NCBI RefSeq assembly: GCF_035917995.1
Contig: NZ_CP109131.1
Span: 2,294,001 to 2,358,000, forward strand
DNA from: Streptosporangium sp. NBC_01755
Lineage (GTDB): Bacteria; Actinomycetota; Actinomycetes; Streptosporangiales; Streptosporangiaceae
Direction: 5' to 3'
DNA: 64,000 nt
Positions 4,089-60,214 of the stretch are shown here, piece after piece. The position numbers and the translations under genes are program-made. Each line of letters starts with the position of its first letter. Positions within the stretch are counted from its first letter, which is position 1. The notes below the pieces were generated by a model. It had not been told where the DNA came from. It did not search any database and saw only the letters and a list, made by a program, of their open reading frames with translations.

Positions 4089-4168
4089 AGTTCTGCTCCC
4101 GTTTCAGGGGGTCTTGACGATACGGCTAGCGCAGCACGCTCCACTCACAACCTAACCTGGTGCCCTGG

Positions 4169-5080
4169 TCATTCCCCAACCGGAGTGAGGACCGTCTCAC
4201 CTATCAGGATCCTGGCCTCGCGGGCCACCCTGCCGGGGAACTCCATCTGGGCCACATGCCCGGCGTCGGGCAGCAGCACCAGCCTCACCTGCGGGAACGT
4301 CCGGCCGGCCCGGGCCGCCATCCGAGGGTTGACGAGCCGGTCGTGGCGGCCGTGCACGACCAGTGTGGGCGCGGTCACCTGGGCCGCCTGCCGCCACAGG
4401 TTCGTCTCGCCGCGCCGGAAGTACTCGGCGACGATGCCGCGCGCCGAGTTGATCAGTGCCGCCCCCGCGTACGGGAGACCGTCCCTGCGGCGCAGCTCCT
4501 CGATCGCCTCCTTGAGCCGCTCCGGGTGAATCCTCCCCACATCGGCGTAACACATGGCGAGCGTGGCACCGAGTCTGCGCTCGGCGGGCAGGAGGCTCAG
4601 CCGGCTCGCCGCCCACTCGCCGAGCCTGGGCACGGTGGACAGCGCCACCCGCGCGGGACCGTACCTGGGCAGCAGATCGGGCAGGGCCGGTGAGATCAGG
4701 GTGAGCGAGCGGACCAGGTCGGGGCGGGTGGCGGCGACCCGCACGGAGACGGCTCCGCCCAGGGAGTTGCCGAACAGGTGTACGGGGGCTCGTGAGACCT
4801 GCTCTATCAGGGCGGTGACGGTCCGGACGTAGGCGTCGACGGAGTAGTCGCCGCCGGGCGGCTCGGGCGAGTATCCGGCCCCTGGCAGGTCGACGGCGTG
4901 GCCGGTCACCACGTCGGACAACTCACCCATCAGATCTGTCCAGTTGGTCGCGGAGCCCGCGAGGCCGTGCACATAGACGGCGGTCTCCGCGGGGCCTGGC
5001 GGCGTCGACCGCACATGGATTCGCTGATCGCCGAGGTCGATCATCTCGCCCTGCCAGCTGGGGATCGGTTTGTGCACCAC
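4169..5080 (-). CDS. Alpha/beta hydrolase (LipV-like position)
   Basis: A 303-residue alpha/beta-hydrolase-fold enzyme. The nucleophile elbow is GNSLGG, the oxyanion region is YVHGLAGSA, the acid lies in VHGRHDRLV and the His in DAGHVAQ. The GTG at 5080 is preceded by AGGAGG with 5-nt spacing, which fixes the start; the reading frame continues upstream without a good site. No signal peptide, so it is probably cytoplasmic. Substrate cannot be read from sequence. It lies between moeZ and the TetR/DUF3107/helicase group, the place where M. tuberculosis has the esterase LipV, so an esterase role is a reasonable guess. Confidence 0.85.
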   Translation of the reverse strand: MVHKPIPSWQGEMIDLGDQRIHVRSTPPGPAETAVYVHGLAGSATNWTDLMGELSDVVTGHAVDLPGAGYSPEPPGGDYSVDAYVRTVTALIEQVSRAPVHLFGNSLGGAVSVRVAATRPDLVRSLTLISPALPDLLPRYGPARVALSTVPRLGEWAASRLSLLPAERRLGATLAMCYADVGRIHPERLKEAIEELRRRDGLPYAGAALINSARGIVAEYFRRGETNLWRQAAQVTAPTLVVHGRHDRLVNPRMAARAGRTFPQVRLVLLPDAGHVAQMEFPGRVAREARILIGETVLTPVGE

Positions 5081-5483
5081 TCGTACCTCCTGTCGCCCCT
5101 CCGCCCTTCCACGATAGTTCGCCTCGCGACACGCCGGACGACGGCCCCCGGGTACCACAAAAGGCACATAAGCCTATTTTCGCCAGATGTCTTTTTATTA
5201 CACGCTTTATCACCATTAGCTAGATGCCTCCTTCAATGCCCTGTACTTCAAAGAACAAATGCGACATTAAAGACATTTAACCCGAAAGCAGCCGCTAAGT
5301 ATCCAAGATCGGCCACAAATAGATAAGGAGAGGGCAAAAGGCTTTGATCTCTGTTTATCGGCAGACATGCGAGGAAATCATGACAACCAGGGATGGCTCA
5401 CCACTGGCCATCTCCGGTAATTCTCGATCGATTCGGTAAATGCCGAAAATCGGGGCAACCGATCCTTTCAAGGGGGAAACGCA
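5081..5483. other. Intergenic region with AT-rich block and conserved leader of first small secreted protein
   Basis: No gene is seen. Bases 5160-5330 are unusually AT-rich for this genome. From 5255 the sequence begins the leader that recurs upstream of the two following copies (6331 and 7258). It includes a short stem at 5392-5397/5407-5412 and an invariant 5-bp hairpin (ATCGG/CCGAT) just before the AAGGGGG ribosome-binding site. Promoters for the hydrolase and for the secreted protein should both lie here. Confidence 0.5.
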
Positions 5484-5801
5484 ATGCCCAAGTTCAAGGG
5501 TGTCCTCGCAGGGCTCGCGATCAGCACGGCGCTGACCGGCGGAGTCGTCGGCATGGGCGCGGCGACCACCGTCACCAGCGCCAGCGCGACGACCACCACG
5601 ATCACCGGCGCCGCCTTCCCGACCTGGGGCGGCGGCTGCGGTCGCGGCTGCGGTTGCAGCCGCTCGCACCACCACCGTCGTAGCCACCACCGCTTCAGGC
5701 TGATCATCAACAACCACAACAACAACAACAACCGCCTGGACAACTTCAACCGCAACGACCGCCTCGTGCCCGTTCTCGCCGAGCGCGACGGCAGGGAGTA
5801 G
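5484..5801 (+). CDS. Small secreted Cys/His/Asn-rich protein, copy 1
   Basis: A 105-residue protein starting at an ATG preceded by AAGGGGG. Residues 1-35 form a classical signal peptide (positively charged MPKFKG, hydrophobic Gly/Ala-rich core, cleavage likely after SASA). The mature part of about 70 residues has a Gly/Cys stretch with spaced Cys residues (GGGCGRGCGC), a His/Arg cluster, the conserved HHRFRLIINN motif, an Asn run and a charged tail ending in LAERDGRE. I do not recognise the family. Cys, His and Asn density suggests metal or surface binding, but that is speculation. It is the first of three tandem paralogues, each with its own leader and terminator. Confidence 0.75.
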   Translation: MPKFKGVLAGLAISTALTGGVVGMGAATTVTSASATTTTITGAAFPTWGGGCGRGCGCSRSHHHRRSHHRFRLIINNHNNNNNRLDNFNRNDRLVPVLAERDGRE

Positions 5802-6558
5802 CAGGCCTCCCGGTCACCGGACCGAGGTCGCACCCCCGACCGGGGCGCGGCACGGCCAGAACATGAGGCCACCCACGGCCGAATCCGCGATGTCGAGCGG
5901 CTTCGGAACCGTAACGGAGCGACAGGACCCCATATTCGCCACGATCACCACTTCTCACCGAGAAAAAGCGATCGAACAGCGGAAACGGGAACTTGAGGAG
6001 AAATCCCCAAGACCCTGACTCCCAACACAGTGCGAGTTCTCATTTCTCAGGAATTACAGCGGGGCCTCGCGGTTTTCGAACCGCGAGGCCCTCGCCCATG
6101 CACCCGGCCCCCCGGCACATCACCTTCCCCACCCCCTCCCCAACACCCCTCACCTCGACACCGACGCACGAGAACGGCCCCCACGGCATCCACCCACGCT
6201 CACCGGATTCGACAGCAGGACACCTCGGAGACGACCCCGGCAGGACCCCCAGAAAGCCGGCGAGGATTCCCCCCACCGCACTCCGCCCCTCCCCTCGACA
6301 ACGCCCCGGCGCCCTCCCCCCACACAAAGCACAAATACGACATTAAGAACATCTCACTTTAAAACAACTAATAAGAGTTCGACATCAACCATAAGGAGAT
6401 AAGAAGAGGGCAAAAGCCTTCGATCTCTGTTTGTCGGAAGAGATACCAGGAAACCATGACAACCAGGGATGACTCATCACCGATCATCTCCGGCTTTTCC
6501 GACCAATCCGGTAAATGCCGAAAATCGGGGCAACCGATCCTTTCAAGGGGGAAACGCA
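5802..6558 (+). other. Intergenic block between copies 1 and 2: conserved downstream sequence, terminator, second leader
   Basis: No gene is supported. It contains sequence conserved after copies 1 and 2 (about 5800-6060), the terminator hairpin at 6062-6091, a C-rich spacer, and from 6331 the second leader. Its structural stem is at 6468-6473/6483-6488 and its invariant hairpin lies directly before the AAGGGGG site. The purpose of the long conserved 3' segment between stop codon and hairpin is unknown. Confidence 0.5.
6062..6091 (+). terminator. Terminator hairpin after copy 1
   Basis: A perfect 13-bp stem with TTCG tetraloop (GGGCCTCGCGGTT and its complement). It lies about 260 bp after the stop codon of copy 1 and is repeated after copies 2 and 3. 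Confidence 0.75.
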
Positions 6559-6879
6559 ATGCCCAAGTTCAAGGGTGTCCTCGCAGGGCTCGCGATCAGC
6601 ACGGCGCTGACCGGCGGAGTCGTCGGCATGGGCGCAGCGACCACCGTCACCAGCGCCAGCGCGACGACCACCACGATCACCGGCGCCGCCTTCCCGACCT
6701 GCGGCGGCGGCAGCTGCAGGCGTGGCTGCGGCTGCTGCTGCCGCAGCTCGCACCACCGTTACAGCCGCCACCGCTTCAGGCTGATCATCAACAACCGCAA
6801 CAACAACGACAACCACCTGGACAACTTCAACCGCAACGACCGCCTCGTGCCCGTTCTCGCCGAGCGCGACGGCAGGTAA
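6559..6879 (+). CDS. Small secreted Cys/His/Asn-rich protein, copy 2
   Basis: A 106-residue paralogue of the protein at 5484. The signal peptide is identical (residues 1-35). The Cys region is expanded and differs (CGGGSCRRGCGCCCRS, seven Cys), the FRLIINN motif is kept, and the Asn-rich segment and LAERDGR ending are nearly the same. The upstream AAGGGGGAAACGCA site is identical in all three copies. The sequence suggests secretion by the Sec pathway and diversification of the Cys-rich segment. No family is recognised; function unknown. Confidence 0.75.
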   Translation: MPKFKGVLAGLAISTALTGGVVGMGAATTVTSASATTTTITGAAFPTCGGGSCRRGCGCCCRSSHHRYSRHRFRLIINNRNNNDNHLDNFNRNDRLVPVLAERDGR

Positions 6880-7486
6880 TAGCAGGCCTCCCGGTCACCG
6901 GACCGAGGTCGCACCCCCGACCGGGGCGCGGCACGGTCGGAACACGAGGCCACCCACGGCCGAATCCGCGATGTCGAGCGGCTTCGGAACCGTAACGGAG
7001 CGACAGGACCCCATATTCGCCACGATCACCACTTCTCACCGAGAAAAAGCGATCGAACAGCGGAAACGGGAACTTGAGGAGAAATCCCCAAGACCCTGAC
7101 TCCCAACACAGTGCGAGTTCTCATTTCTCAGGAATTACAGCGGGGCCTCGCGGTTTTCGAACCGCGAGGCCCTCGCCCATGCACCCGGCCCCCGGCACAT
7201 CACCTTCCCCACCCCCTCCCCAACACCCCTCACCTCGACACCCCTCCCCCACAAAGCACAAATGCGACATTAAGAACATTTCATTTGAAATCAATCAATA
7301 AGAGTTCAACATCGATGATAAATATCTAAGGAGAGAGCAAAAGCCTTCGATCTCCGTTTATCAGCAGAGATGCCAGGAAACTATGACAACCAGGGATGGC
7401 TCATCACCGGCTATCTCCGGCAATTTCCTACCAACCCAGGAAATGCAGAAAATCGGGGCAACCGATCCTTTCAAGGGGGAAACGCA
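6880..7486 (+). other. Intergenic block between copies 2 and 3
   Basis: No gene is supported. It contains the same conserved downstream segment as after copy 1, the terminator at 7143-7172, a shortened C-rich spacer, and from 7258 the third leader with its stem at 7395-7400/7410-7415. Confidence 0.5.
7143..7172 (+). terminator. Terminator hairpin after copy 2
   Basis: Identical to the hairpin after copy 1: a 13-bp perfect stem with TTCG loop, about 260 bp after the stop codon of copy 2. Confidence 0.75.
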
Positions 7487-7858
7487 ATGCCCAAGTTCAA
7501 GGGTGTCCTCGTAGGGCTCGCGATCAGCACGGCGCTGACCGGCGGAGTCGTCGGCATGGGCGCAGCGACCACCGTCACCAGCGCCAGCGCGATGACCACC
7601 ACGGTCACCTCCGTCGCCTTCCCGACCTGGGGCGGCGGCTGCGGTGGCGGCTGCCACCGCCGTCACAGCCACCGGCGGTTCAGGCTGATCATCAACAACC
7701 ACAACAACAACCGCAACCACCTGAGGAACGACAACCGCCAGGACCGCTTCGAGCCCCTCCGCGAGGAGCGCCGCCGCGACGGCCGCGACGGCAACGGTGG
7801 CGGCAACGGTGGCGGCAACGGTGGCAACAACGACCTTGCCGCCCCCCCGGTCTCCTAG
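7487..7858 (+). CDS. Small secreted His/Asn/Gly-rich protein, copy 3
   Basis: A 123-residue paralogue of the two preceding genes. The signal peptide is the same apart from two substitutions. The Cys segment is reduced (GGGCGGGCHRRHSH), the FRLIINNHNNN core is conserved, and the C-terminus is replaced by an Arg/Asp-rich stretch and a Gly-Asn tail (GNGGGNGGGNGG) that looks like slippage of a 12-bp repeat. It keeps the identical ribosome-binding site and leader. This copy is the most divergent and may be diverging in function. Extracellular location is predicted; role unknown. Confidence 0.75.
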   Translation: MPKFKGVLVGLAISTALTGGVVGMGAATTVTSASAMTTTVTSVAFPTWGGGCGGGCHRRHSHRRFRLIINNHNNNRNHLRNDNRQDRFEPLREERRRDGRDGNGGGNGGGNGGNNDLAAPPVS

Positions 7859-8467
7859 TCTCCTGACCAGGGCCGCGCGCCCCGGGCGGGGCGCGGCACG
7901 ACCAGAGGCCGAAACCACATACGGCCGGATCCGCGATTTCCAGTGGCTCCGAAACCGTGACGGAGAGACAGGATCCCGCATTCGCCACGATCACGGCTTC
8001 TCACCGAGAAAAAGCGGTCGGACGGCAAATACCGGAGCTTGAGGAGAAGTGCCTAAGCTCCTGGCTCTCATATACAGTGCGAGTTCTCATTTCTCAGGAA
8101 TTACCGGCGGGGCCCGCGGTTTTCAAACCGCGGGCCCCGCTGCGACATCCCCCGCCCCTCTGCCAAATCCCCCGCCCCTCCGCCAACCCTCTCCCTCGAA
8201 TGTCGGTCGAGCGGCGCCCGCCCCCGGTCACCTCAATGCCGACGCGACCCACCGGGCCCGACACCTCCGGCCAACTATCGCATACATGTTCTAAAAATCG
8301 CCGGACAGATGTAAAGCATCGCCAATGCGGCAGGTACCGCCATGGGCAATCCGATGCCGTGCCTTTCTCAGCGCGCGGCATCCGAGGTCGTACGCTGGGC
8401 GATGTCCGACGTTTGCAGGAACCGGGCCAGGACAGGAAACGTGCCGAAGCCCGGATGACGACAGGGG
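7859..8467 (+). other. Intergenic region: end of third unit, terminator and upstream region of acidic protein
   Basis: No gene is supported. It contains the diverged downstream segment of copy 3, the hairpin at 8107-8140, a C-rich stretch, and a less GC-rich segment (8270-8300) that probably holds the promoter of the acidic protein at 8468. Confidence 0.45.
8107..8140 (+). terminator. Terminator hairpin after copy 3
   Basis: A 15-16 bp perfect stem around a TTCA-type loop (GCGGGGCCCGCGGTT and its complement). The stem sequence differs from copies 1 and 2, yet pairing is fully kept, which supports selection on the hairpin. Confidence 0.75.
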
Positions 8468-8779
8468 ATGTCAGACATGAACGTGCACGGCGCCGGCAAG
8501 CACGGGAAAACGGTCGACGACCCGTCCGAGGAGATCCCGATCGAGACGCCCGAGGCCGACGCCGCCGAGCAGCGTCAGTCGGCGCGCGAGGGCGGCTCCG
8601 TCTTGTCCCCCGACCTCTCCGCGGAGGCGGAGGTCGACCCCGCGGACGCCGCCGAGCAGGACCGGACCGCGCGCGAGGAGGATCAGGAGTGGCCCGATAC
8701 CGTCCCCATGGAGGCGAATCCCGCCGACATCTTCGAGCAGCGACGCACGATCGAGCTCGATGAGGACGATTATCGCTGA
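8468..8779 (+). CDS. Small acidic hypothetical protein with three internal repeats
   Basis: A 103-residue, very acidic, probably disordered protein. Three imperfect repeats of the type (E/P)AD(A/I)(A/F)EQ-R/D-x-(S/T) are visible at about residues 29-39, 57-68 and 84-95, the last followed by an acidic DEDDYR tail. No signal peptide, membrane segment or Cys. The ATG at 8477 has a better-spaced GGGG site than the ATG at 8468, so it may start three residues later. It precedes the TetR gene on the same strand by about 60 bp. Function not recognised. Confidence 0.6.
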   Translation: MSDMNVHGAGKHGKTVDDPSEEIPIETPEADAAEQRQSAREGGSVLSPDLSAEAEVDPADAAEQDRTAREEDQEWPDTVPMEANPADIFEQRRTIELDEDDYR

Positions 8780-8839
8780 CCCCTGTTACCCGCGCGTAGG
8801 ATGGCCCCAGACACCAGGAGTTTCACCCAAGGAGACCAC

Positions 8840-9469
8840 GTGACCGCTACCCCGGATGCCAAGCCCCGGGGCACCCGGCTGCCCCGGACAGCCCGCCGCC
8901 GCCAGCTGCTCAGCGCGGCGCAGGAGGTCTTCGTGGAGAACGGCTACCACGCGGCCGCGATGGACGAGATCGCCGAGCGTGCCGGGGTCAGCAAGCCGGT
9001 CCTCTACCAGCACTTCCCAGGCAAGCAGGAGCTCTATCTGGCCCTGCTCGACCTGCATGTGGACGACCTGATCACTCGCTGCCGCGACGCCCTCGCCTCC
9101 ACCACGGACAACAAGCAGCGTGTCCAGGCCGCCATCGGCGCGTTCTTCGACTTCGTCTCCAGCCAGGGCGAGGCCTTCCGGCTGGTGTTCGAGTCGGATC
9201 TGCGTAACGCCGCCCCGGTCCGCCAGCGCATGGAGCGCAACCTCCGTGAGAGCGCCGAGATGATCAGCCAGGTCATCCAGGAGGACACCGGCTGCTCCAG
9301 CGACGAGGCACGCCTGCTGGGCGTCGGGCTGGTCGGCATGGCCGAGGTCAGCGCACGTTACTGGATCAGTAGCAACGGCTCCATTCCCAAGGACGCGGCC
9401 ACCCAGCTCATCGCGCGCCTGTCGTGGCGCGGCATCTCCGGTTTCCCCCGCACCGTCGCCGACCACTGA
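8840..9469 (+). CDS. TetR/AcrR family transcriptional regulator
   Basis: A 209-residue regulator. The N-terminal TetR DNA-binding domain (about residues 15-62) contains the HTH with IAERAGVSKPVLYQHFPGK; the C-terminal helical domain is the ligand and dimer part. The GTG at 8840 has GGAG 5 nt upstream and gives the normal N-terminus; an in-frame ATG at 8801 is less likely. It is followed by a DUF3107 gene and a little further by a ferritin-like protein and a RhlE-type helicase. The same order occurs in M. tuberculosis (TetR Rv3208, TB9.4, Rv3210c, RhlE). The regulated genes cannot be told from sequence. Confidence 0.9.
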   Translation: MTATPDAKPRGTRLPRTARRRQLLSAAQEVFVENGYHAAAMDEIAERAGVSKPVLYQHFPGKQELYLALLDLHVDDLITRCRDALASTTDNKQRVQAAIGAFFDFVSSQGEAFRLVFESDLRNAAPVRQRMERNLRESAEMISQVIQEDTGCSSDEARLLGVGLVGMAEVSARYWISSNGSIPKDAATQLIARLSWRGISGFPRTVADH

Positions 9470-9605
9470 GAACGTCCCGCGGCCCCGCCGGCCCCGCCGG
9501 CCCCGCCGGCCCCAGGACATCTGTTCGCTTGGCGCGATCAACCGGCGCGTCGGACCTTCGATGGGGCGACCATGGGACGAGCAACCCTCATCGAAAGGGA
9601 GCACG

Positions 9606-9836
9606 ATGGAAATCAAGATCGGCGTACGTTCCGTGCACCGTGAACTCGTAGTGGAGACCGACCTCACGGCCGACCAGGTCGAGAGCGAGATCGGTGCCGC
9701 CCTCACATCCGGCAGCGGTGTCTTCACCCTCACCGACGTCAACGGCCGGAAGATCATCGTCCCGGTCGCGTCACTCGGCTTCATCGAGATCGGCGAGGAG
9801 GCGGCGCGTCCCGTCGGCTTCGGCGGCACGCTCTAA
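9606..9836 (+). CDS. DUF3107 family small protein
   Basis: A 76-residue protein beginning MEIKIGVRSVHREL, with a beta-rich layout and the characteristic VPVASLGFIEIGE segment. Length and position after a TetR gene match the DUF3107 family (M. tuberculosis TB9.4). Cytoplasmic, biochemical role not established. A GAAAGGGAG site precedes the ATG. The 136 bp upstream contain a 10-12 bp GCCCCGCCG repeat in tandem (9479-9514). A long inverted repeat follows the stop. Confidence 0.85.
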   Translation: MEIKIGVRSVHRELVVETDLTADQVESEIGAALTSGSGVFTLTDVNGRKIIVPVASLGFIEIGEEAARPVGFGGTL

Positions 9837-10352
9837 CGGATTCCGAGGCTCGCGCCGGATCGTCGTCCCCCGCCGGCATGGCGCGGTCCGCGGATCCGGC
9901 GCGAGCACGGGCGTCGAGTGATCATCTCTTGCGGAGAATCCGATGTGGGGCGCCCCGGACCCCCGGCACCCGTCTCGCCGGGCTCAGAAACGCTCGTTCC
10001 CCCATGTGCCCGGGCACTCGTCCCGCTCGCCGAACCCGCAGCAGCGCGGACGTCTGACCCGGCGAAGATGCTCCCGGCCCCGGCCGACGGCCGGACACCC
10101 CGCGCCTCCTCTGCGTAGCACGGGACGCGATGTCCAGCGGTTCGGCCCACATCTCGTCAAGGAACTGCCATAGCGGCGCGAGGCCCTCATGTCTCGCACG
10201 CTACCGCTGTTCGGCGTCCCACGCGCCTCGATCCGCGGACCGGTTCTCCTGCTCCGCCCCCCGGCGAACAGGCCCAGGGCCGCTCCGGGAGCCGGGAACA
10301 TCCCCCGAACGACCATCCCGGCCCCCATGCCAGGGGCGCGGGGGGCAGCGGC
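9837..10352. other. Intergenic region between convergent DUF3107 and ferritin-like genes
   Basis: No gene is supported in these 516 bp. Apart from the inverted repeat at 9848-9906 I see no structured element. Open frames on both strands are high-GC shadows without ribosome-binding sites. Confidence 0.5.
9848..9906 (+). terminator. Long inverted repeat, probable terminator of DUF3107
   Basis: A perfect 14-bp inverted repeat (9848-9861 with 9893-9906) around a 31-nt loop that itself contains GC-rich complementary stretches. It starts 12 bp after the DUF3107 stop codon. Confidence 0.6.
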
Positions 10353-49178: not shown

Positions 49179-49288
49179 ACCGACCCAATGCGCCGCGGCG
49201 ATTTGCCAGACTATGGTCTGTTCCATGAGTCTCGTTCCCGGCCACATGGAGTGACTCGGGCGGCTTAAGGGGCTGGTGAAGGGAACGG

Positions 49289-51508
49289 ATGAACTTCTGT
49301 CTGAGTGACCTCGTGCCGCCGCTACGCTGGAGCGACGCGGCCACGATCCCACTTCTGCGCGACCAGCCGGACCTGCCGGACGCCTGGTGGCGGAGCCTGC
49401 CGATGGCCCACGTGCTCGCCGTACTGCCTCCTGAGAGGCTGGCCGAGATCCTCACCGCGCTCGCCCTGAGCCACTGGCCTGCCGCTACCGTGGGCGACGT
49501 GCTGCCCGCACTGCACGTCCTGGATCCGGACGAGGCTGACGAGCCCTGCACGGCCATAGCCCTCGACCGCGCGGGATCCTGGCCGGGTCTCCTCGCGCTG
49601 ACCGGCCACGACCTGCGCGACCAGCCGTTCATCCAGCCGGTCCCGCTGCTGCACGCCCTTTTCACAGCGGTCTTCGCACGCCTGGCGGCTCCGGTCCCGG
49701 CGACCCCGCTCCCGGTCGCTTCGGTCCCGGTCGCTTCAGTCCCGGCGCCTGCCGCGCGGAGCGAGTCAGCCCCGGGCGAGTCCGATGCCATACCGAATGA
49801 GTCTGAAGCCACCCCCGCCCCCGTGCCGGGGACCGGGCCCGGCGTCGTGACGGAGTCCCCCGCCGAACCCCCCGCGCCCCCTGCCGAGAGCGCCACCGAC
49901 CCGGAAGCCCTACCGGAGCCAGAAGCCCGGCCAGAGCCGGAAGCCCTAGCAGAGCCGGAAGCCCTACCGGTGCCCGAGGCACGTCGCGCGGCGGAGACCA
50001 AGGCGGAGACCAAGGCTGAGGCTGAGCCCGCTGCCGTCCCTGGATCGCTCTTCCAGCCCGGCCCGGCGAGGGACGGCCTGCCCACGGCCGACCCGGCGAG
50101 GAACGACACGCCCGCGGCCGGCATGGAAGCTCGGGCCGCCGCGTCAGGAGAGGCCCGGCCGACGGAGTCCTCCGCCGAGAGCGTGCCCGAGTCCGAGGTG
50201 GGTGCCGACGCCCCGGTCGAGTCGGTCACCGAGGCCGGCGAGGACTCCGTACCCGCCGACGCCCCGGAGGCGGCGGGCGCTCCCGAGCCGGAAAAGCCGG
50301 AGAAGGCCGTGCGGAGCCAGGGAGCCGAGCGGCCTGCGGAGAGCCTGCACGCGCTGGTGGACGGTGTCTTCGCCAACGTGGAGGACAAGCGCTGGGCGGT
50401 GGCGCAGAACAGGCTGTTCAGCGACACCCCGGCGACCGCGGAGGCGCTGGCCAAGCTCTTCGCGGTGCGGCCGGAGGTCATCTTCGGCATCGAGGTCGAC
50501 CTGCGCCGGGAGCTCGGGGAGTGGATCGCCTCCGACGAGGCCGCCCCGTACCGGGAGCACCTGGAAGAGATGAAAAGGCTCCTCGGCAGGGCGGCACCCA
50601 AGGAGCGGCTGATCAACGCCGCCGACTGGCACACCCAGGAGCTGTACTCTCTCGACATACCGGCCTGGCAGTTCGTGCTGGCCACGCTCCCCGGTTACCA
50701 CCTGGTCGACGAGTGGCTGGTGGAGGGCGACATCGCCGAGCTCCGCCACCGCACCCGCGACATGCTCAGCGAGGCCCCGCCGCCGCTGACCATCAACAAG
50801 GCCCTCGACATGGTCTCCTCGCTGGGCATCCACCCCGAGGTGTCCAAGGAGTGGCTGGAGAACGTTCCGCAGCTCCGCATCCTCGGCGCGGGTGAACGAC
50901 CTCCCCAGCGCCCGAACGGCGTCCCCGCCCTGATCGCGGAGATGCCCGCCGGCGTGCCGAGGAAGAACGGGGAACCGGCGAAGGCACCCTTCCGCCCGCT
51001 GAAGGACGTCTCGCTGACCAGGCGCTGCTTCCGCCAGCCCGACGGCCGCTGGTGGCTGAGGATCGACGTCACCTCCGATCACCTGCAGGGCGCCGAGTGC
51101 TCGCTGCCCAGCGGGTTCGCCGCCTATCTCGGGATGTCACCCGGTGAGGGCCGCACAGTCAGCAGCGCGGTCGGCGAACTGGTCCTCAGCTGGCATGACA
51201 GGCCCGTGCTGGAGTCGCTCAGGACGCTCCTGGAGGACGTGGGAGCCAAAGAGGGCAGCCACCTGTTCCTGACCCTGTCGGACGAGGGGGTCCTGCGGGC
51301 CAGGCACCTACCGGCCTCGGAGGGCGAGGGCGAGGCGACGGCCCAGGCACTGAGGCTTGTCGGCTACACCGCCTCGGGCGGCACCCCGGAGCAGGCCGGG
51401 CGGGTCATCGCCACCCGGGTCGGCATGACAGGCCCCGTGGGCATACCCGACCTTCTCACCCGGCTGCGAGAACGCGGGGACCGCGATCTCCTGTCACTGT
51501 TGGCCTAG
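49289..51508 (+). CDS. Helicase-module protein A: degenerate homologue of the sigma-region-4-like protein, with long Pro/Glu-rich insert
   Basis: A 739-residue protein homologous to the one at 53619 in three parts. The N-terminal segment (about 1-130) shares LSD, PPLRW, AWW and VLP motifs. A central part (about 352-560) has SLHALVDGVFANVEDKR and an HTH-sized region. A C-terminal domain (about 576-739) starts LTRRCFRQPDGRWWLRIDV. Between the first two parts is a 220-residue Ala/Pro/Glu-rich low-complexity insert. In the HTH position it reads AVRPEVIFGIEVDL, while its homologue reads SVTRERIRQIERDL, so the DNA-recognition residues look lost. The two winged helices of the homologue are absent. 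The GAAGGGA site precedes the ATG. The helicase starts 3 bp after its stop. Confidence 0.75.
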   Translation: MNFCLSDLVPPLRWSDAATIPLLRDQPDLPDAWWRSLPMAHVLAVLPPERLAEILTALALSHWPAATVGDVLPALHVLDPDEADEPCTAIALDRAGSWPGLLALTGHDLRDQPFIQPVPLLHALFTAVFARLAAPVPATPLPVASVPVASVPAPAARSESAPGESDAIPNESEATPAPVPGTGPGVVTESPAEPPAPPAESATDPEALPEPEARPEPEALAEPEALPVPEARRAAETKAETKAEAEPAAVPGSLFQPGPARDGLPTADPARNDTPAAGMEARAAASGEARPTESSAESVPESEVGADAPVESVTEAGEDSVPADAPEAAGAPEPEKPEKAVRSQGAERPAESLHALVDGVFANVEDKRWAVAQNRLFSDTPATAEALAKLFAVRPEVIFGIEVDLRRELGEWIASDEAAPYREHLEEMKRLLGRAAPKERLINAADWHTQELYSLDIPAWQFVLATLPGYHLVDEWLVEGDIAELRHRTRDMLSEAPPPLTINKALDMVSSLGIHPEVSKEWLENVPQLRILGAGERPPQRPNGVPALIAEMPAGVPRKNGEPAKAPFRPLKDVSLTRRCFRQPDGRWWLRIDVTSDHLQGAECSLPSGFAAYLGMSPGEGRTVSSAVGELVLSWHDRPVLESLRTLLEDVGAKEGSHLFLTLSDEGVLRARHLPASEGEGEATAQALRLVGYTASGGTPEQAGRVIATRVGMTGPVGIPDLLTRLRERGDRDLLSLLA

Positions 51509-51511
51509 CTC

Positions 51512-53569
51512 ATGCCCCGCCTCGCCATCTCCCCCGACTTCCCCGTCGAACTCGGCGCCCTGGCCCAGCCGGTGCGGCGGGACGTCGTGGTGTCGGCACG
51601 CAGGTTCCTGCAGAACGTGGCGGGTGCTCCGCACCCCGAGCGGGTCAGGGGGGCCAGGGACCCCCGGATCGTCACCCTGAGGCTGGCCGACCGCCACCGG
51701 GGTGTCGTGGTCAAGCAGCGGGACGTCTACTGGCTGCTGACCGTGCTGCCGGACGTGGAGGCGTGGGCGTACGCCCAGCGCTACCGGTTCGGCGTCAACA
51801 CGGCGATTGGAGTGGTCGAGATGTGGGACGCCGAGGCGCTGGACCAGGTACGACCCGCGGTGCGCAGGGCTGCCGAGGCGTCCACGACACGGCTGTTCTC
51901 CGAGATCTGCGACAGTGACCTGGCCGAACTGGGGGTGGACGGCCGGTTCCTGCCGCTGGTCAGGCAGATCACCGACCAGCTCACCCTGGAGGCGCTCGAA
52001 CCGCTCCTGCCTCCGACGCAGTACGAGCCGCTGGCGGCGCTCGCCAGGGGCGAGTCGATGGCCGCGGCCTGGCGGGAGTTGGAGAACTGCCGCGCCGTCG
52101 CCGCGGGGCCCGAGCCGATCAACCCCGAGGACTTCGGTGCCGCGCTCCTGCGCAGCCCGGACCGGGCCGTCTTCACAAACCACCCGCGCGAGCTGAACCG
52201 CGTGCTCGACGCGCCCGGCTGGTGCGTGTTCCTGCGGCCGCCTCAGCACCGGCTGGCGTACTGGGCGTCCTACCAGCAGCCGACGCTGGTCACCGGTGGC
52301 GCGGGCACCGGCAAGACGCTCGTCGCCCTGCACAGGGCGGCCTACCTGGCCAGGCGCGCGGGCGGCCAGATCCTGCTCGTCACCTTCTCCCAGAGGCTGA
52401 GCGCCGAACTCGCGGCCAAACTCGACGTGCTGATCGAGGACGAGATGATCCGCAAGCGGATCGAGGTCGGCAACGTGGACCGGCTGGCCCACCGCATCGT
52501 CGCCGAGGCCGAGGGGCGTCCGCCCTCGCTGGTCGGCGCCGCCGAGCTGACGGCGCTCTGGGGGGAGACGGAGACGGGCCACAGCCCGGCGTTCCTGCTG
52601 CGCGAATGGGAGCAGGTGGTACTGGCGCAGAACCTCCGGACGCTGGAGGAGTATCTGGACACCCCCCGCTCGGGCCGCGGCGTCGAGTTGTCGGCCGAGG
52701 AGCGCGTCGCCGTCTGGGACGCCATCGGGCACGTCACCGGCCGGCTGCGAGAGCGCGGCAAGCGGACCCTGCTGCAACTGGCCTCCGAGGCGTCGGTGCT
52801 GCTCGGCCAGACCACGGGAGACCTGCTGGAGGAGGCGGAGCCCATGCGGGAGCCGTACCGGCACATCGTGGTGGACGAGGCGCAGGACCTGCACCCCGCG
52901 CAGTGGCGGCTGCTGCGGGCGGCGGTGCCGCACACCCGCGACGACCTGTTCATCGTGGGCGACCCGCACCAGCGCATCTTCGACACTCGGGTGACGCTCA
53001 GCGCCGTCGGGATCGACGCGATCCGGCAGCGCCTGCAGGTGTCGTACCGGCTCCCGCAGGAGATTCTGTCCTGGGGGGTCCGGCTGCGCGGAGGCGGTCC
53101 CGCCGACGGGCTCGTCAACGGTGTGCAGGAGCTTTACGGCTTCCGGAGCACCCGGCACGGGCTCAGGCCGATGGTCCGTGCCTACGATTCACCACGAGAT
53201 GAGCTGACGGGGCTGGTGGCACAGGTGGGACAGTGGGTGGATGAGGGCGTGACGCCCGAGGAGATAGCGGTGGCCGCCAGGACCGCCGGCCTCGTGCGTG
53301 ACGCGCGGACCGCTCTGCGCGAGCTGGGGGTGCGAGTGACGACGCTGCACGGCATGAAGGGACTCGAGTTCCGGCGGGTCGCGGTGATCGGCGTGGGCGA
53401 GGGGATCGTGCCCGACCCCGACTCGCTGACCCCGGTCGGCGAGGATCCAGCCGCCAGGGCCCACGATCTCCAGCGGGAGCGTGGCCTGCTCTATGTCGCC
53501 TGCACCCGGGCACGAGAACTCCTTTACGTATCCCATTCCGGACGGGCGAGTCCCTTCCTTCCCAACTGA
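51512..53569 (+). CDS. UvrD/Rep-type superfamily 1 helicase
   Basis: A 685-residue SF1 helicase. Motifs: Walker A GGAGTGKT at about residues 261-268, VTFSQRL, Walker B VVDEAQDL at about 453-460, VGDPHQRIF, the Arg-rich QVSYRLPQEI, TTLHGMKGLEF and LYVACTRARELLYV. The N-terminal 110 residues (IVTLRLADRHRGVVVKQRDV then YWLLTVLPDVEAW) look like a small RelE/ParE-type fold, a combination seen in some stand-alone UvrD-like proteins; that part is an inference. It sits between two homologous DNA-binding-type proteins, with gaps of 3 and 49 bp, and should be co-expressed. It does not look like RecBCD, AddAB, UvrD2 or PcrA in its neighbourhood. Confidence 0.88.
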   Translation: MPRLAISPDFPVELGALAQPVRRDVVVSARRFLQNVAGAPHPERVRGARDPRIVTLRLADRHRGVVVKQRDVYWLLTVLPDVEAWAYAQRYRFGVNTAIGVVEMWDAEALDQVRPAVRRAAEASTTRLFSEICDSDLAELGVDGRFLPLVRQITDQLTLEALEPLLPPTQYEPLAALARGESMAAAWRELENCRAVAAGPEPINPEDFGAALLRSPDRAVFTNHPRELNRVLDAPGWCVFLRPPQHRLAYWASYQQPTLVTGGAGTGKTLVALHRAAYLARRAGGQILLVTFSQRLSAELAAKLDVLIEDEMIRKRIEVGNVDRLAHRIVAEAEGRPPSLVGAAELTALWGETETGHSPAFLLREWEQVVLAQNLRTLEEYLDTPRSGRGVELSAEERVAVWDAIGHVTGRLRERGKRTLLQLASEASVLLGQTTGDLLEEAEPMREPYRHIVVDEAQDLHPAQWRLLRAAVPHTRDDLFIVGDPHQRIFDTRVTLSAVGIDAIRQRLQVSYRLPQEILSWGVRLRGGGPADGLVNGVQELYGFRSTRHGLRPMVRAYDSPRDELTGLVAQVGQWVDEGVTPEEIAVAARTAGLVRDARTALRELGVRVTTLHGMKGLEFRRVAVIGVGEGIVPDPDSLTPVGEDPAARAHDLQRERGLLYVACTRARELLYVSHSGRASPFLPN

Positions 53570-53618
53570 CCACATAGTCTGAACTGCGGATGTAATCCCC
53601 TTTGCCGGTTGGACCTCA

Positions 53619-55466
53619 ATGAACCTCAGCCTGAGCGACATCGCGCCACCTTTGCGCTGGACCTCTCCTGGCCAGGTAGCGCCGATCGCAACCGATCCAC
53701 GCCTCCCAGAGGCGTGGTGGCAGGCGCTTCCGCTCGACAGGGCCTGCTCCACCATCGGGACGTCCGAGGTCGCCGGACGCCTGACCGACCTCGCCCTGAC
53801 GTGCTGGGGTCACCTGATGCTCGGCGACGTCCTCCCCCTGCTCAGGTTCTCCGACCCCGCTTCGAGCGTGCGCACGCCCGAGGGGCTCGGCCGCGAGACG
53901 GTGCACAAGCTGTTCACCGGGGTGCTGGAGCGACTGCTCGAACCGGTCACCGAGGAGAGCGTCGCCCAGGTCCGCCCCGCAAGGCCCGACCGGCCGCTGC
54001 CCGAGCTGATCGACGAGGTCTTCGCCACGCTGGACGAGCGGCAGCGGGCCATCGCCAGGGACCGGCTCTACGCCTCCCAGCGGGCCACGCTCGACGACCT
54101 GGCCCAGCGCTTCTCCGTCACCAGGGAACGCATCCGGCAGATCGAGCGTGACCTGCGCGACCATGTCGAGGCCTGGCTCGCCAAGGACGACGCGGCTCCG
54201 CTGACAGGCCACGTGTCCTGGCTGCGAGGCCGGTTGGGCTCCGCCGTGCCCGCCGACGACCTGGCCGCGGCGGTGCCCTGGCACCGCACCGACCTGGCCA
54301 CGCTGGGCATCCCCTCCTGGCGGTTCGTCAGGACCCTGCTGAGCGGATACGAGCAGGTGGACGGCTGGCTGGTCGCGGGCGGTTCGGACGAGCTCAGGGA
54401 GAAGACCCGGCAGCTGTTCACAGACGGGCCGCGCCCGCTGGACGAGGCCGTCACGCTGGTCAGCCAGCTCGGCATCCGCGAGGACGTGGCCGAGCGCTGG
54501 CTCATCGCGGTGCCCCAGCTGCGGGTGCTGGAGAACCACGTGGTGCCCTGGCCGCGCAGCGTCAACGACAAGGCCGAGGCCGTGCTCGCGGTGGCGGGCA
54601 ACCCGCTGACGCCCGAGGAGATCCAGGAACGCATCGGCGAGGACTACAGCCTCGTCGGCATCCGCAACCAGCTCACCGCCGACGACCGGTTCCTGCGGGT
54701 CGACCGGAACAAGTACGGGCTGGCACGCTGGGGCGGCGAGCAGTATCTGGGCATCCGGGAAATGATCGTTCGGGAGATCGAACGCGCCAACGGCGAGGCG
54801 TCCGTCAACACGATCGTCACCAACCTCACCGCGCGCTACGACGTGAGCGAGAGTTCGGTCCGCGCGTACGCCGGCGGCCCCGGCTTCGAGCGCACCCAGC
54901 GCGGATGGATCCGGGTGGCCGGAGCCGAGCAGTCCGACTACCAGCCACGCCGCGACGTCTCGGAGACCCGGCGCTGCTTCCGCAGCCGCGACGGGCGCTG
55001 GTGGCACCGGGTGGACGTCAACGCCGAGCACCTGCGCGGCTCCGGCTCCCCGCTGCCGACCGGCTTCGCCGCGCACCTCGGCATGGCCCCCGGCGGCCAG
55101 CTGACCGCCTCCACCCCCTCGGGCGACGTGGTGATCAGCTGGCACAACCAGCCGACCATGGGCTCCATCCGCCCCGTGCTGATCGCCGCCAACGCCTCCG
55201 AGGGTGACCACGTCTTCCTGACCGTGTCCGACGGCGGCGAGCTGCTGACCCGCTACCTGCCCGCCGCCTCACCGGCGCTGCCCGCCCTGAACCGGGCGCT
55301 GCACCTGATCGGCTACACGGCACCGGTGGCCTCGGAAGCCGAGGGCATCCGCCTGATCGGCGCCCGCATCGGCCTCTCGGACGGCTGCACCCGCGATGAG
55401 GTGATCGCCCGCCTGCGCGACCGAGGAGACCGCGAGATCCTGGCCTTCCTGGAAGGCAGTGTCTGA
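53619..55466 (+). CDS. Helicase-module protein B: sigma-70 region 4-like HTH with tandem winged helices
   Basis: A 615-residue protein. A sigma-70 region 4-type HTH lies at about residues 154-180: LDDLAQRFSVTRERIRQIER. Two winged-helix-like segments follow at about 315-371 (LTPEEIQERIGEDYSLVGIR) and 377-433 (IREMIVREIERANGEASVN). The C-terminal domain (about 445-615) with TRRCFRSRDGRWWHRVDVN is shared with the protein at 49289. No sigma region 2 is present, so it is not a sigma factor; it may be a sequence-specific DNA-binding partner of the helicase. The ATG is 49 bp after the helicase stop. A perfect palindrome after the gene is the likely end of the operon. Confidence 0.8.
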   Translation: MNLSLSDIAPPLRWTSPGQVAPIATDPRLPEAWWQALPLDRACSTIGTSEVAGRLTDLALTCWGHLMLGDVLPLLRFSDPASSVRTPEGLGRETVHKLFTGVLERLLEPVTEESVAQVRPARPDRPLPELIDEVFATLDERQRAIARDRLYASQRATLDDLAQRFSVTRERIRQIERDLRDHVEAWLAKDDAAPLTGHVSWLRGRLGSAVPADDLAAAVPWHRTDLATLGIPSWRFVRTLLSGYEQVDGWLVAGGSDELREKTRQLFTDGPRPLDEAVTLVSQLGIREDVAERWLIAVPQLRVLENHVVPWPRSVNDKAEAVLAVAGNPLTPEEIQERIGEDYSLVGIRNQLTADDRFLRVDRNKYGLARWGGEQYLGIREMIVREIERANGEASVNTIVTNLTARYDVSESSVRAYAGGPGFERTQRGWIRVAGAEQSDYQPRRDVSETRRCFRSRDGRWWHRVDVNAEHLRGSGSPLPTGFAAHLGMAPGGQLTASTPSGDVVISWHNQPTMGSIRPVLIAANASEGDHVFLTVSDGGELLTRYLPAASPALPALNRALHLIGYTAPVASEAEGIRLIGARIGLSDGCTRDEVIARLRDRGDREILAFLEGSV

Positions 55467-55488
55467 TGGCGCTCGCTCCGCTCGCGCG

Positions 55489-55508
55489 GGCTCGGCCGCG
55501 GCCGAGCC
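55489..55508 (+). terminator. Terminator palindrome ending the helicase module
   Basis: The 20-bp perfect palindrome GGCTCGGCCGCGGCCGAGCC lies 23 bp after the stop of the protein at 53619. It separates the module from cysS. Confidence 0.65.
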
Positions 55509-58228: not shown

Positions 58229-58615
58229 ATGAGCGATGCTAGGGCCACCGTGCCCGCATCGGCCATCCCGGGATGGCGGTTGATCACCAGTGACCGGGGC
58301 CGTTTCCGGGCCATACACCGAGAGCCGTCCCCCCTGGACGCGTTGCAGGCCGGGGCGGAACCCAACCCCCCTTGGGAGGCGCGGGGCGCTTCTTCGTGTT
58401 TCCTAAGCGGGCAGGTCCCAGGACCGGCCATCCGGTTCGCCCAGCCAGACGTATTGGCGGTCCCTGGTGACAGTGAGTCCGAACGCCGACTGGTGCGGAG
58501 ATCCGGCGTCCTGCCAGATCAGGATGGCGTCCTCAATCGCGTCCCACAGCCGCAGCGGGCCGTGCTGGTGAACCGTCCACCCGCCGTCGGGGTTCGGCCT
58601 GGTGTCGGCCCGTGA
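58229..58615 (+). CDS. Small open frame, possibly truncated hypothetical gene
   Basis: An ATG at 58229 follows AAGGAG with 9-nt spacing and begins MSDARATVPASAIPGWRLIT, resembling short actinobacterial proteins with an IPGWRxxxSDRGRFRA start. After about 50 residues the frame runs into the antisense 3' end of the RiPP maturase gene and becomes implausible. Either a short protein whose true 3' end was lost or a decayed gene. Low confidence. Confidence 0.35.
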   Translation: MSDARATVPASAIPGWRLITSDRGRFRAIHREPSPLDALQAGAEPNPPWEARGASSCFLSGQVPGPAIRFAQPDVLAVPGDSESERRLVRRSGVLPDQDGVLNRVPQPQRAVLVNRPPAVGVRPGVGP

Positions 58616-59974
58616 TCCGGTGCCGACGTCTAACAGGATTGTCGTGTCTCCGCTCGATGATCGCTGGGCGGCCGGCGCAGCGAGCTGGGCGACGAACAGC
58701 GGGGCTTCGCCATTGAGGATCGCCGGGTCGATCCTGGTCTCTCGGGCCTGGCCGATGCCCGTCATGATGGGTGGCCGCGGCGGCGGCAGGTGGGAGCGGG
58801 CACGCATGAAGTACACGTCATCCTTCAGGAACCGTCCGCTCGCCGTACCGTCCTCGTCGAGGGTGAGGTGCGCGAACGCGATTCCGCCCATCCAGCCCCA
58901 CGTTGGCGTGGTGATGGTCCCTCCGGTACGGACCTGCCCCATCCATGCCGGGGGGATCGTCCGTACCGAGCAGGTGCCGATCAGCCGGTCGTAGGGGGCG
59001 TTGTCGTCGTAGCCGTGGAGGCCGTCCCCGGTCACGAGTGTCGGCGCGTATCCGACCTCGGTGATGGCTTTCCTCGCACGCTCGGCCACGGCGGGGTCGT
59101 ACTCGATGAAGATCCATTTCCCGCTGGCTTCGAGCGCGAAATCGAACGCGCCGAACATCAGCCCGAAGTGGTCAAGGTAGGCGTGTAGAGCGTTCCTGAT
59201 CGGCTCGGGCACATCGATGGGGTCATGGGTCAACTGCTCCCAGTCGCCGCTGCGCCAGTCGAGCGCACCGTCAGGAGTGGTGATCCTACTGGCGAACACG
59301 CGCCGCCCAATCACTGTCACCCGCGCGTCCGCGACCTTGCGCACCTCCTGCTGGAACAGGTGGGCGGTCACCGACACTGAGTCATCCAGGTCTTCGGAGG
59401 TGACCCGCTGCGTCCATATCGCAACGCGACCCTCCGAAGAGGGTGGGACGCCTCGGAACGACTTGTAGATGATCGGGCCATGCTCAGCGGCGAACTTCCG
59501 CGCCTGTTCGAGGTCGTTGGTGATCAGGCTCAGCGGGATGCTCAGCCCGAGCCGGACAGCCGTTCGGAGCTGCGCGACCTTGTAGTCGGCGCGGTTGATC
59601 GCTGCGGGATGGCTGACGTATCTCGCGCCGTGCAGGGTGCGCAGGATGCCGCCGAGCCCGTGCTGGGCTTCGGCGGTGGCGAAGGTGCTTTGCCGAGCGG
59701 GCAGGTGGGCGAATCGGACCGAGTACAGGCTGGGGCGGCGGTAGTACACCGCCCCAACCTCCGCGAGTGCGATGTCGCGACTCGCCGTACGCAGCCGACC
59801 AGCCCATTCCCCGCGGTCATCAATGGCGGCGCTGAACATCAGCCCGGCGCCGATATCGGCCGGATCGGCTCGGACGACCCGCGCCTGGCGCTCGTTCAGC
59901 ACCCCGATCACCAGGTTGGCAGTGGCGTCCTCTACCGATGTGATGACCAGCACGGTCTGTGGTGATGGCCGCAT
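58403..59974 (-). CDS. tgmB: Chimeric RiPP maturase: ATP-grasp (TgmB-like) joined to C-terminal half of methyltransferase (TgmC-like)
   Basis: A 523-residue protein starting at ATG 59974. Residues 1-291 follow the ATP-grasp RiPP maturase (SAV_5884/TgmB family): YYRRPSLYSV, HPAAINRADYKVAQL, IYKSFRGVP with the ATP-binding Lys171, FGAFDFALEASGKWIFIE. At Glu291 the sequence changes without a break to EYDPAVAERARKAITEVGYA, GDGLHGYDDNAPYDRLIGTC, the second half of the PCMT-like methyltransferase partner (TgmC). SAM motif I of that partner and the last strand of the ATP-grasp fold (ECNPN metal ligands) are both missing. Both activities may be lost or altered. The stop of tgmA is 3 bp upstream. Confidence 0.85.
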   Translation of the reverse strand: MRPSPQTVLVITSVEDATANLVIGVLNERQARVVRADPADIGAGLMFSAAIDDRGEWAGRLRTASRDIALAEVGAVYYRRPSLYSVRFAHLPARQSTFATAEAQHGLGGILRTLHGARYVSHPAAINRADYKVAQLRTAVRLGLSIPLSLITNDLEQARKFAAEHGPIIYKSFRGVPPSSEGRVAIWTQRVTSEDLDDSVSVTAHLFQQEVRKVADARVTVIGRRVFASRITTPDGALDWRSGDWEQLTHDPIDVPEPIRNALHAYLDHFGLMFGAFDFALEASGKWIFIEYDPAVAERARKAITEVGYAPTLVTGDGLHGYDDNAPYDRLIGTCSVRTIPPAWMGQVRTGGTITTPTWGWMGGIAFAHLTLDEDGTASGRFLKDDVYFMRARSHLPPPRPPIMTGIGQARETRIDPAILNGEAPLFVAQLAAPAAQRSSSGDTTILLDVGTGSRADTRPNPDGGWTVHQHGPLRLWDAIEDAILIWQDAGSPHQSAFGLTVTRDRQYVWLGEPDGRSWDLPA

Positions 59975-59977
59975 CCG

Positions 59978-60214
59978 CTAGCTGTCGGTGTTGGAGTCGT
60001 CGGCCACGTTGGCGCTACCGCCAGAGCCGTCGCTCCCGCCGCCCTTCGACGTGGTCACGGTGACCTTGTTGCCCATGTCCACGATGACGCCGGCACGGTT
60101 GCGGAAGCTGGTGAGCTGGGTCACCGGGTCGAACTGGATGGTGTCGTACAGCGGCGGGCACTCCGAAAGCGGCTCGGTCATCCGGCTGAGTCCCCAGGGG
60201 GCAACTGTGGTCAT
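59978..60214 (-). CDS. tgmA: ATP-grasp-modified RiPP precursor peptide (TgmA-like)
   Basis: A 78-residue precursor with the family leader VAPWGLSRMT, a middle part PPLYDTIQFDPVTQLTSF and the VDMGNKVT segment, followed by a Gly/Ser/Asp/Asn-rich core with TSKGGGSDGSGGSANVADDS. The acidic core residues are the expected sites of macrocyclic ester or amide links made by the ATP-grasp maturase encoded right after it. ATG at 60214. A 10-bp hairpin 36 bp upstream may control it. The final natural product is unknown. Confidence 0.88.
   Translation of the reverse strand: MTTVAPWGLSRMTEPLSECPPLYDTIQFDPVTQLTSFRNRAGVIVDMGNKVTVTTSKGGGSDGSGGSANVADDSNTDS

Follow-up and report, generated by a model that had tools for sequence, protein, structure and literature searches.

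The described systems closest to the locus examined here are PbeABCD, the DISARM-type DrmA-DrmB operons, MZA, Gabija and the helicases of the HelD/HelR and UvrD/PcrA/Rep groups. The locus, which we call the trio, lies in a stretch of 64 000 nucleotides of Streptosporangium sp. NBC_01755 (contig NZ_CP109131.1, positions 2 294 001 to 2 358 000; hereafter the window) and consists of the gene for a UvrD-type helicase, HEL, between the genes for two related proteins, A and B. PbeABCD, a phosphorothioate-linked system (CxC ABC-ATPase/DndE), was described in PMC6459918 and reinterpreted in PMC10853773, and the passages concerned of the two papers name no sigma-like partner of PbeA. Passages of PMC10853773 also report a sigma-related helix-turn-helix (HTH) within some DndH proteins and propose HARE-type winged helices as sensors of modified DNA, and a passage of PMC9523054 mentions MzaA as a sigma factor.

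Each of these systems resembles the trio in part. Full-length B homologues, with a sigma-4 domain, winged helices and the same C-terminal domain, lie directly beside a PbeA-type gene in several actinobacteria, whereas the trio has ordinary neighbours, with no PbeA or PbeC beside it, and its B lacks a segment of the Pbe-linked homologues that resembles the C-terminal domain of the RNA polymerase alpha subunit (alpha-CTD). The helicase of DrmA-DrmB operons, one of which is found in the window's own genome, is a HEL paralogue, including the N-terminal 240 residues, and is 37–44% identical to the trio HEL; the trio loci, however, have no matches to DrmA, DrmB, kinase, GmrSD or methylase (0/22). 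MzaA and B both carry a sigma-4-like HTH (B scores 35.7 bits over 51 residues), but B falls far under the MzaA cut-off of 800 bits, the match is limited to the HTH and the neighbours are ordinary. GajB of Gabija gives HEL its best PADLOC score (103.4 bits, among 50 PADLOC families matched altogether), but there is no GajA-like neighbour, the adjoining genes being A, B, a methyltransferase gene and a CysS-like gene.

The superfamily 1 (SF1) helicase core of HEL is common to HelD/HelR and UvrD/PcrA/Rep, yet HEL reaches no equivalog cut-off and has an N-terminal domain of its own. Its scores are 85.8 bits for PcrA (cut-off 911), 77.2 for UvrD (1144) and 68.9 for Rep (951), and for the HelD/HelR models 58.7 (419), 68 (750), 45.7 (1100) and 42.1 (1051), the last four missing their cut-offs by a wide margin. 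HEL differs from UvrD further in that no more than about 100 residues separate the motifs taken to be IV and V, where UvrD carries its 2B domain. Membership in HelD, UvrD, Gabija, MZA, Pbe and DISARM was rejected because equivalog cut-offs are missed or partner genes are absent beside the trio, and no description of a unit combining these parts was found in the open-licence literature searched.

We propose, with some hesitation, that A-HEL-B is a self-regulated, vertically inherited operon of defence-type parts, in which B would bind operators, A would restrain B and HEL would be the effector. Our confidence in this proposal, which is drawn from sequence comparison, falls a little short of even.

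A conserved three-gene unit at a fixed chromosomal place

In the open reading frame (ORF) list of the window, A, HEL and B all lie on the plus strand and encode 739, 685 and 615 residues, with 3 bp between A and HEL and 49 bp between HEL and B. An earlier reading made from the letters and ORFs alone (the sequence-only reading) had given the same three ORFs and gaps, with a UvrD-type helicase in the middle, and both points hold: HEL matches PF00580 (E 1.8e-23; 84.1 bits against a cut-off of 23) and UvrD_C (E 1.8e-12; 47.8 against 25.6 bits). Residues GK 267–268 and DE 455–456 of HEL are invariant in 22 orthologues. The features of the locus are as follows.

49200..49220, plus strand: conserved element upstream of A, GATTTGCCAGACTATGGTCTG, with the dyad CAGAC-TATG-GTCTG at 49207–49220
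49289..51508, plus strand: gene A, a B paralogue without winged helices and with an eroded sigma-4-like HTH
49289..49690, plus strand: A N-terminal domain, residues 1–134, of which residues ~86–133 match in position the alpha-CTD-like segment of distant homologues
49691..50338, plus strand: A low-complexity linker (Pro/Ala/Glu), acidic in the window and variable in length
50369..50560, plus strand: eroded sigma-4-like HTH of A, residues 361–424
50981..51505, plus strand: A C-terminal domain common to B, residues 565–739
51512..53569, plus strand: HEL, compact UvrD-type SF1 helicase of 685 residues
51512..52231, plus strand: HEL N-terminal domain, residues 1–240, common to helicases of DrmAB/kinase/GmrSD operons
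53570..53618, plus strand: conserved HEL-B gap of 49 bp, holding CATAGTCTGAACTGCGGAT and TTTGCCGGTTGGACC
53619..55466, plus strand: gene B, a protein of 615 residues with sigma-4 HTH, winged-helix and C-terminal domains
54021..54152, plus strand: B sigma-70 region 4 domain, residues 135–178 (Pfam 30.2 bits against a cut-off of 24.1)
54558..54731, plus strand: B HARE-type winged helix, residues 314–371 (22.1 bits, under the Pfam cut-off of 25.9)
54936..55463, plus strand: B C-terminal domain, residues 440–615, common to A and distant homologues
55489..55508, plus strand: GC-rich palindrome noted in the sequence-only reading, not conserved and probably no part of the unit

A survey of 200 genomes of the order supports A-HEL-B as a conserved unit in one actinobacterial family. 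Trio-type HEL (E<=1e-75) is found in 96 genomes from 18 genera and full-length trio-type B also in 96, with one further genome (G197) in which B is split over contigs. B occurs without HEL in one genome only (G125), and the two genes adjoin in all 95 genomes that carry both on one contig and strand, at a start-to-start distance of 1856–2239 nt. The sequence-only reading would have been abandoned had the genes been found mostly apart elsewhere; this did not happen, HEL and trio-type B being almost never separated.

The presence of A was assessed in 22 trio loci fetched from 19 genera. Wherever the stretch reaches, the recurrent order is aminotransferase, ferredoxin, solute-binding protein, methyltransferase, A, HEL, B and CysS-like. 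The methyltransferase gene is present in 21 of these loci, the remaining one ending at a contig end; the CysS-like gene is absent in L047 and inverted in L046, and the L049 locus is truncated where its contig ends. That all 22 loci, from 19 genera, share one chromosomal place argues for vertical inheritance of the trio. A location in a defence island, which the sequence-only reading had proposed to check, was rejected because the neighbours in the 22 loci are ordinary and none of these loci holds any of the tested defence genes.

Ratios of non-synonymous to synonymous substitution (dN/dS) in four within-genus pairs are 0.13–0.18 for B, 0.20–0.33 for HEL and 0.04 to 0.46 for the neighbours. In A, the middle (0.42–0.59) evolves about twice as fast as the ends (0.16–0.27), and the linker gives 0.38–0.81. 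Named carriers of the trio are Microbispora sp. H11081 (L119, full trio) and Nonomuraea gerenzanensis (L245), whose trio record of 11.85 Mb is labelled a plasmid. The scan of named genomes used the sigma-4 helix as a pattern and mostly returned sigma-factor-like stretches; only three of its 80 loci (L119, L120 and L121) match trio proteins at E<=1e-12.

The two related proteins and the elements before their genes

Three blocks of homology link A and B, at 34% identity in the N-terminal, 43% in the middle and 45% in the C-terminal part; the best block has E 5e-47, and a profile comparison of the two N-termini gives 99.7% probability. The homology proposed in the sequence-only reading, which had itself pointed to profile comparison as the place where it could fail, is thereby upheld. 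Its assignment of a canonical sigma-70 region 4 HTH to B is likewise borne out by a Pfam score above cut-off, and no region 2 model matched B at E<=1. Of the two winged helices that it saw in B, the HARE-type one is found, though under the cut-off, and the second gives weak matches only (PqqD E 0.05, MCM_WH E 0.27). The C-terminal domain of B has no significant relative in the PDB by sequence (best E 0.22).

A, on the other hand, was said to lack the winged helices and to carry altered recognition residues, and both statements agree with what was found. It has no Pfam match, and at E<=1 none of the 29 A-type proteins, made up of 19 trio A, seven lone A-like and three of a third paralogue, matches Sigma70_r4. 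The recognition helix of B, VTRERIRQIERDL, is identical in 21 of 21 orthologues (mean column identity 1.00); its counterpart in A has a mean column identity of 0.57 among 19 orthologues, all of which lack the helix arginines at positions 3, 5 and 11, while three of them retain that at position 7. The low-complexity insert of A, put at about 220 residues, is real and spans roughly 210. Its net charge is −28 over residues 136–341 in the window and ranges from −61 to +1 in the 17 orthologues measured, and the very variable linker goes with A lengths of 517 to 1580 residues across 19 orthologues. The N-terminal domain of A matches the N-termini of the distant homologues (hhalign 83%, E 9.2e-6) and has no match when set directly against alpha-CTD (0.16%), so that its tie to alpha-CTD runs only through those homologues.

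Trio A and trio B are sisters in the whole-family, N-terminal and middle-segment trees (support 1.0, 0.99 and 0.985). The C-terminal tree is discordant, grouping the Nocardiopsis-like A-type with trio B at 0.968, below a weakly supported node (0.226); the segment trees omitted rows with too few letters, retaining 48, 54 and 52 of 55. A is an eroded paralogue, or twin, of B. The A-type features (no winged helices, N-terminal insertion) occur also in the lone A-like genes and in the third paralogue. This third A-type paralogue, without winged helices, is found in the window's own genome and in genus g2 (L069, of the window's genome at C1:472610–474313, L084 and L085), with neighbour families common to the two genera.

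New in this analysis are two conserved control elements, one before A and one before B. The dyad before A, with at most one mismatch, on the strand of HEL and 1.6–4.9 kb upstream of it, is present in 87 of the 96 trio genomes. With each palindromic site counted once, there are 35 copies away from the trio among the 96 trio genomes and 21 among the remaining 104, and a reversed-pattern control gave 0–4 matches per strand and genome. The gap between HEL and B holds TTTGCCGGTTGGACC and the box CATAGTCTGAACTGCGGAT, within which CATAGTCTG corresponds to CAGACTATG read on the opposite strand. Over 22 loci the gap averages a pairwise identity of 0.805, compared with 0.598 for the fourfold sites of B in 20 sequences. 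The window's genome contains a single exact copy of each element, and near copies with two to three mismatches show no excess over the reversed-pattern control (18/16, 3/3 and 4/3 rows), so no regulon is visible. We read the two elements as candidate operators or promoters of the trio itself. The case for B as a putative sequence-specific binder gains from the conservation of the dyad upstream of A, from its relation to the box upstream of B and from the single exact copy of each.

The two elements are better supported as regulatory than the 3' palindrome with which the sequence-only reading had closed the unit. The palindrome is present in the sequence, but is unconserved and folds like its shuffles (z 0.12; 102 of 200 shuffles equally good). 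It was ruled out as a boundary on this fold, on a mean identity of 0.402 over 21 loci in the 50 nt 3' of B, and because the terminator-like site sought in the region was not found. Of the earlier picture of a self-contained DNA-targeting module, the paralogy of A and B, the eroded HTH of A and the conserved three-gene unit have stood and the palindrome as boundary has not; A as a regulator or decoy is still a prediction.

Relatives of the helicase and of B

The N-terminal 240 residues of HEL mark a wider family, with matches at E<=1e-5 in 54 of 296 genomes from the class, the trio carriers counted in. In sequence searches this domain has no PDB match, no Pfam match in the window's HEL and no ParE/RelE match in 15 orthologues; against the RelE/ParE fold it scores 23.9 by hhalign, compared with at most 17.8 in 50 column shuffles, over 30 columns and at 24% probability, so that this fold is only suggested. 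The domain is modular, as in a Streptomyces sp. Alt3 plasmid (L247, 9001–11061) it is fused to a serine/threonine kinase, not to a helicase.

Twelve HEL-paralogue loci outside the trio were fetched and searched by tblastn (E<=1e-8) with a methylase and with six proteins, including the helicase, that the paralogue locus of the window's genome encodes; gene labels are those of PADLOC, and the two query loci (L107 and L109) count themselves among the 12. DrmA and DrmB are both present in seven loci, the kinase in seven, GmrSD in five and the methylase in four. At least one tested defence gene is found in 10 of the 12, with none in L113 and L117. The same search of the 22 trio loci matched the helicase alone, DrmA, DrmB, kinase, GmrSD and methylase giving 0/22. 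On plasmids of E. coli and Pseudanabaena, helicases headed by the HEL N-terminal domain adjoin a DNA methylase and a very large helicase.

The paralogue locus of the window's genome (L107, C1:1674440–1689159) forms a row of DrmA, DrmB, a PD-T4-6-like kinase, the HEL paralogue and GmrSD, a combined DISARM/kinase/GmrSD-type cluster. The combination of drmA, drmB, UvrD and kinase was not found described in the literature searched.

Fourteen loci with B homologues were fetched outside the trio and Nocardiopsis-like groups. In six of them (L066, L067, L068, L086, L088 and L090) the homologue lies beside PbeA/PbeC cluster genes; in five of these the Pbe genes share its strand, and in L090 they lie on the other one. 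L068 and L090 were themselves labelled with PADLOC. The homologue and the PbeA-type gene overlap by one base in L066 and L068, and L068 has a DndA/SspA-like gene nearby. Elsewhere the homologue adjoins an Orf5/SspE-like gene (L087) or a helicase of 2064 residues (L095), or lies near NADH dehydrogenase genes (L089 and L091), a weakly matched AAA_30 ATPase (L092) or a siderophore-interacting/methyltransferase gene (L093); L094 is a short contig and the neighbourhood of L096 was left out. An RNA polymerase alpha-CTD domain exceeds the Pfam cut-off in two Pbe-linked homologues. True alpha-CTDs are also matched by a set of four homologues, of which two have no Pbe link (hhalign 94.9%, E 4.6e-8).

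Besides that of N. gerenzanensis, 15 plasmid records carry B homologues (Mycolicibacterium, Mycobacterium, Microbacterium and Arthrobacter). Those of Microbacterium plasmids lie beside UvrD-type genes, on one plasmid together with a nuclease gene, and in the two fuller mycolicibacterial and in the M. avium stretches no obvious defence operon adjoins the homologue. Phage records gave no B homologue at E<=1e-5, nor did viral contigs searched with the C-terminal profile.

Weighing the explanations

Under the self-regulated operon that we prefer, B would use its sigma-4 HTH and winged helices to bind both elements, the dyad upstream of A and the related box in the HEL-B gap, and would thereby control the unit. 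A, which appears to have kept the shared N- and C-terminal domains and to have lost the DNA-reading residues and the winged helices, would pair with B and restrain or retune it, and HEL, whose paralogues belong to restriction-like defence operons at most of the loci inspected, would be the ATP-driven effector, opening or stripping DNA once some trigger has lifted the block. The module would now be core-chromosomal in this family, probably for surveillance of abnormal or foreign DNA. Its predicted link to defence is derived from the relatives, not from the trio locus itself.

Several observations weigh against this proposal. The neighbours of the trio are ordinary genes and form no defence island. 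Sister genera, which we take to be Nocardiopsis-like, carry a lone A-type gene in seven loci (L077–L083) and a lone B-type gene of 35–44% identity in six (L060–L065), with no HEL match in the 16–18 kb read around either; neither type therefore needs this helicase everywhere, and it is in the trio clade that A, HEL and B are tightly coupled. One locus (L058, genome G125) lacks A and has a 240-residue remnant of HEL beside an intact B. The HEL frame is 605–642 residues long in 24 of the 25 genomes of genus g7, against at least 682 in the other 71; in the aligned case (L048) about 75 residues are missing between motifs Ia and II, probably subdomain 1B, with the catalytic motifs retained, and the frame of L245 is likewise shortened. 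The dyad is absent within 8 kb in nine of the 96 trio genomes, three of which (G159, G128 and G189) have a copy on another contig, and it could be read by another regulator. A simple sigma-70 scan of the region found no promoter-like site.

Three other explanations have to be weighed against the same evidence. In the first, which seems to us rather unlikely, the trio would be a working defence against phages that happens to have a fixed seat in the core genome; B would recognise foreign or modified DNA and recruit HEL while A keeps the complex off self DNA. This view draws on the PbeA/PbeC genes beside B homologues in six of 14 loci, on the HEL paralogues beside DrmA, DrmB, kinase and GmrSD, or on plasmids beside a methylase and a very large helicase, and on the proposal in passages of PMC10853773 that HARE-type winged helices sense modified DNA. 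Against it stand the fixed place and apparent vertical inheritance across 22 loci of 19 genera, and domain searches of A, HEL and B that found no nuclease or DNA-modification domain. Defence genes, moreover, usually show turnover, whereas B is strongly constrained. We consider it improbable that the trio clears stalled RNA polymerase or resolves transcription–replication conflicts, with B docking through sigma-4, HEL removing the complex and A modulating the docking. Sigma-4 domains do bind the polymerase flap and −35 DNA, an alpha-CTD-like domain is present in the distant homologues too, the trio is core-genome and constrained, and HEL has weak scores against the HelD/HelR models; these scores, however, miss the cut-offs as widely as given above, no sigma region 2 was found in B, and cis-elements confined to a single locus point to a dedicated regulator.

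Such elements, with one exact copy each at the trio locus, are also what would be expected if B and A were simply the repressor and co-regulator of a stress-induced repair helicase, tied to defence only by shared ancestry, and the ordinary neighbours, the constraint and the occurrence in sister genera of A-type or B-type genes on their own fit this as well. We nevertheless give this explanation little probability, as HEL paralogues lie beside at least one tested defence gene in 10 of 12 loci, and B homologues beside PbeA/PbeC in six of 14 and in the 15 plasmid records.

A broader suggestion, which we regard as doubtful, is that A and B represent an undescribed actinobacterial family that joins pieces resembling the promoter-facing parts of RNA polymerase (alpha-CTD-like, sigma-4) to winged helices and a private C-terminal domain. 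Its members might provide the subunit that controls, or senses for, several unrelated machines that attack DNA: PbeAC systems, helicase clusters on plasmids and, in the trio, a DrmAB-operon-type helicase. The trio would then be a variant that is fixed in the chromosome and regulates itself, one of its two copies having turned into a partner that does not bind. If our preferred reading is right, a sigma-4/winged-helix family would have links to at least two kinds of defence, namely Pbe systems and DrmAB-type helicases, and the trio would show how defence parts can settle in a core genome and regulate themselves there. With its invariant recognition helix, B forms with the conserved dyad a directly testable protein–DNA pair, and the eroded twin A is a natural candidate for a dominant-negative partner. 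The loss in G125 and the shortened g7 helicases are natural experiments, with L058 as a natural test of B working alone.

Two further features of the window lie apart from the trio. Positions 4001–10000 stand out from most of the window by a lower GC content and a strong AT skew, which reaches 0.27. At 58403–60214, on the minus strand, an ORF of 523 residues fuses an MvdD-type pre-ATP-grasp region with a PCMT-type methyltransferase segment and is adjoined by an ORF of 78 residues, which we take to resemble a graspetide precursor; such a join points to a pair that was fused or lost an internal part.

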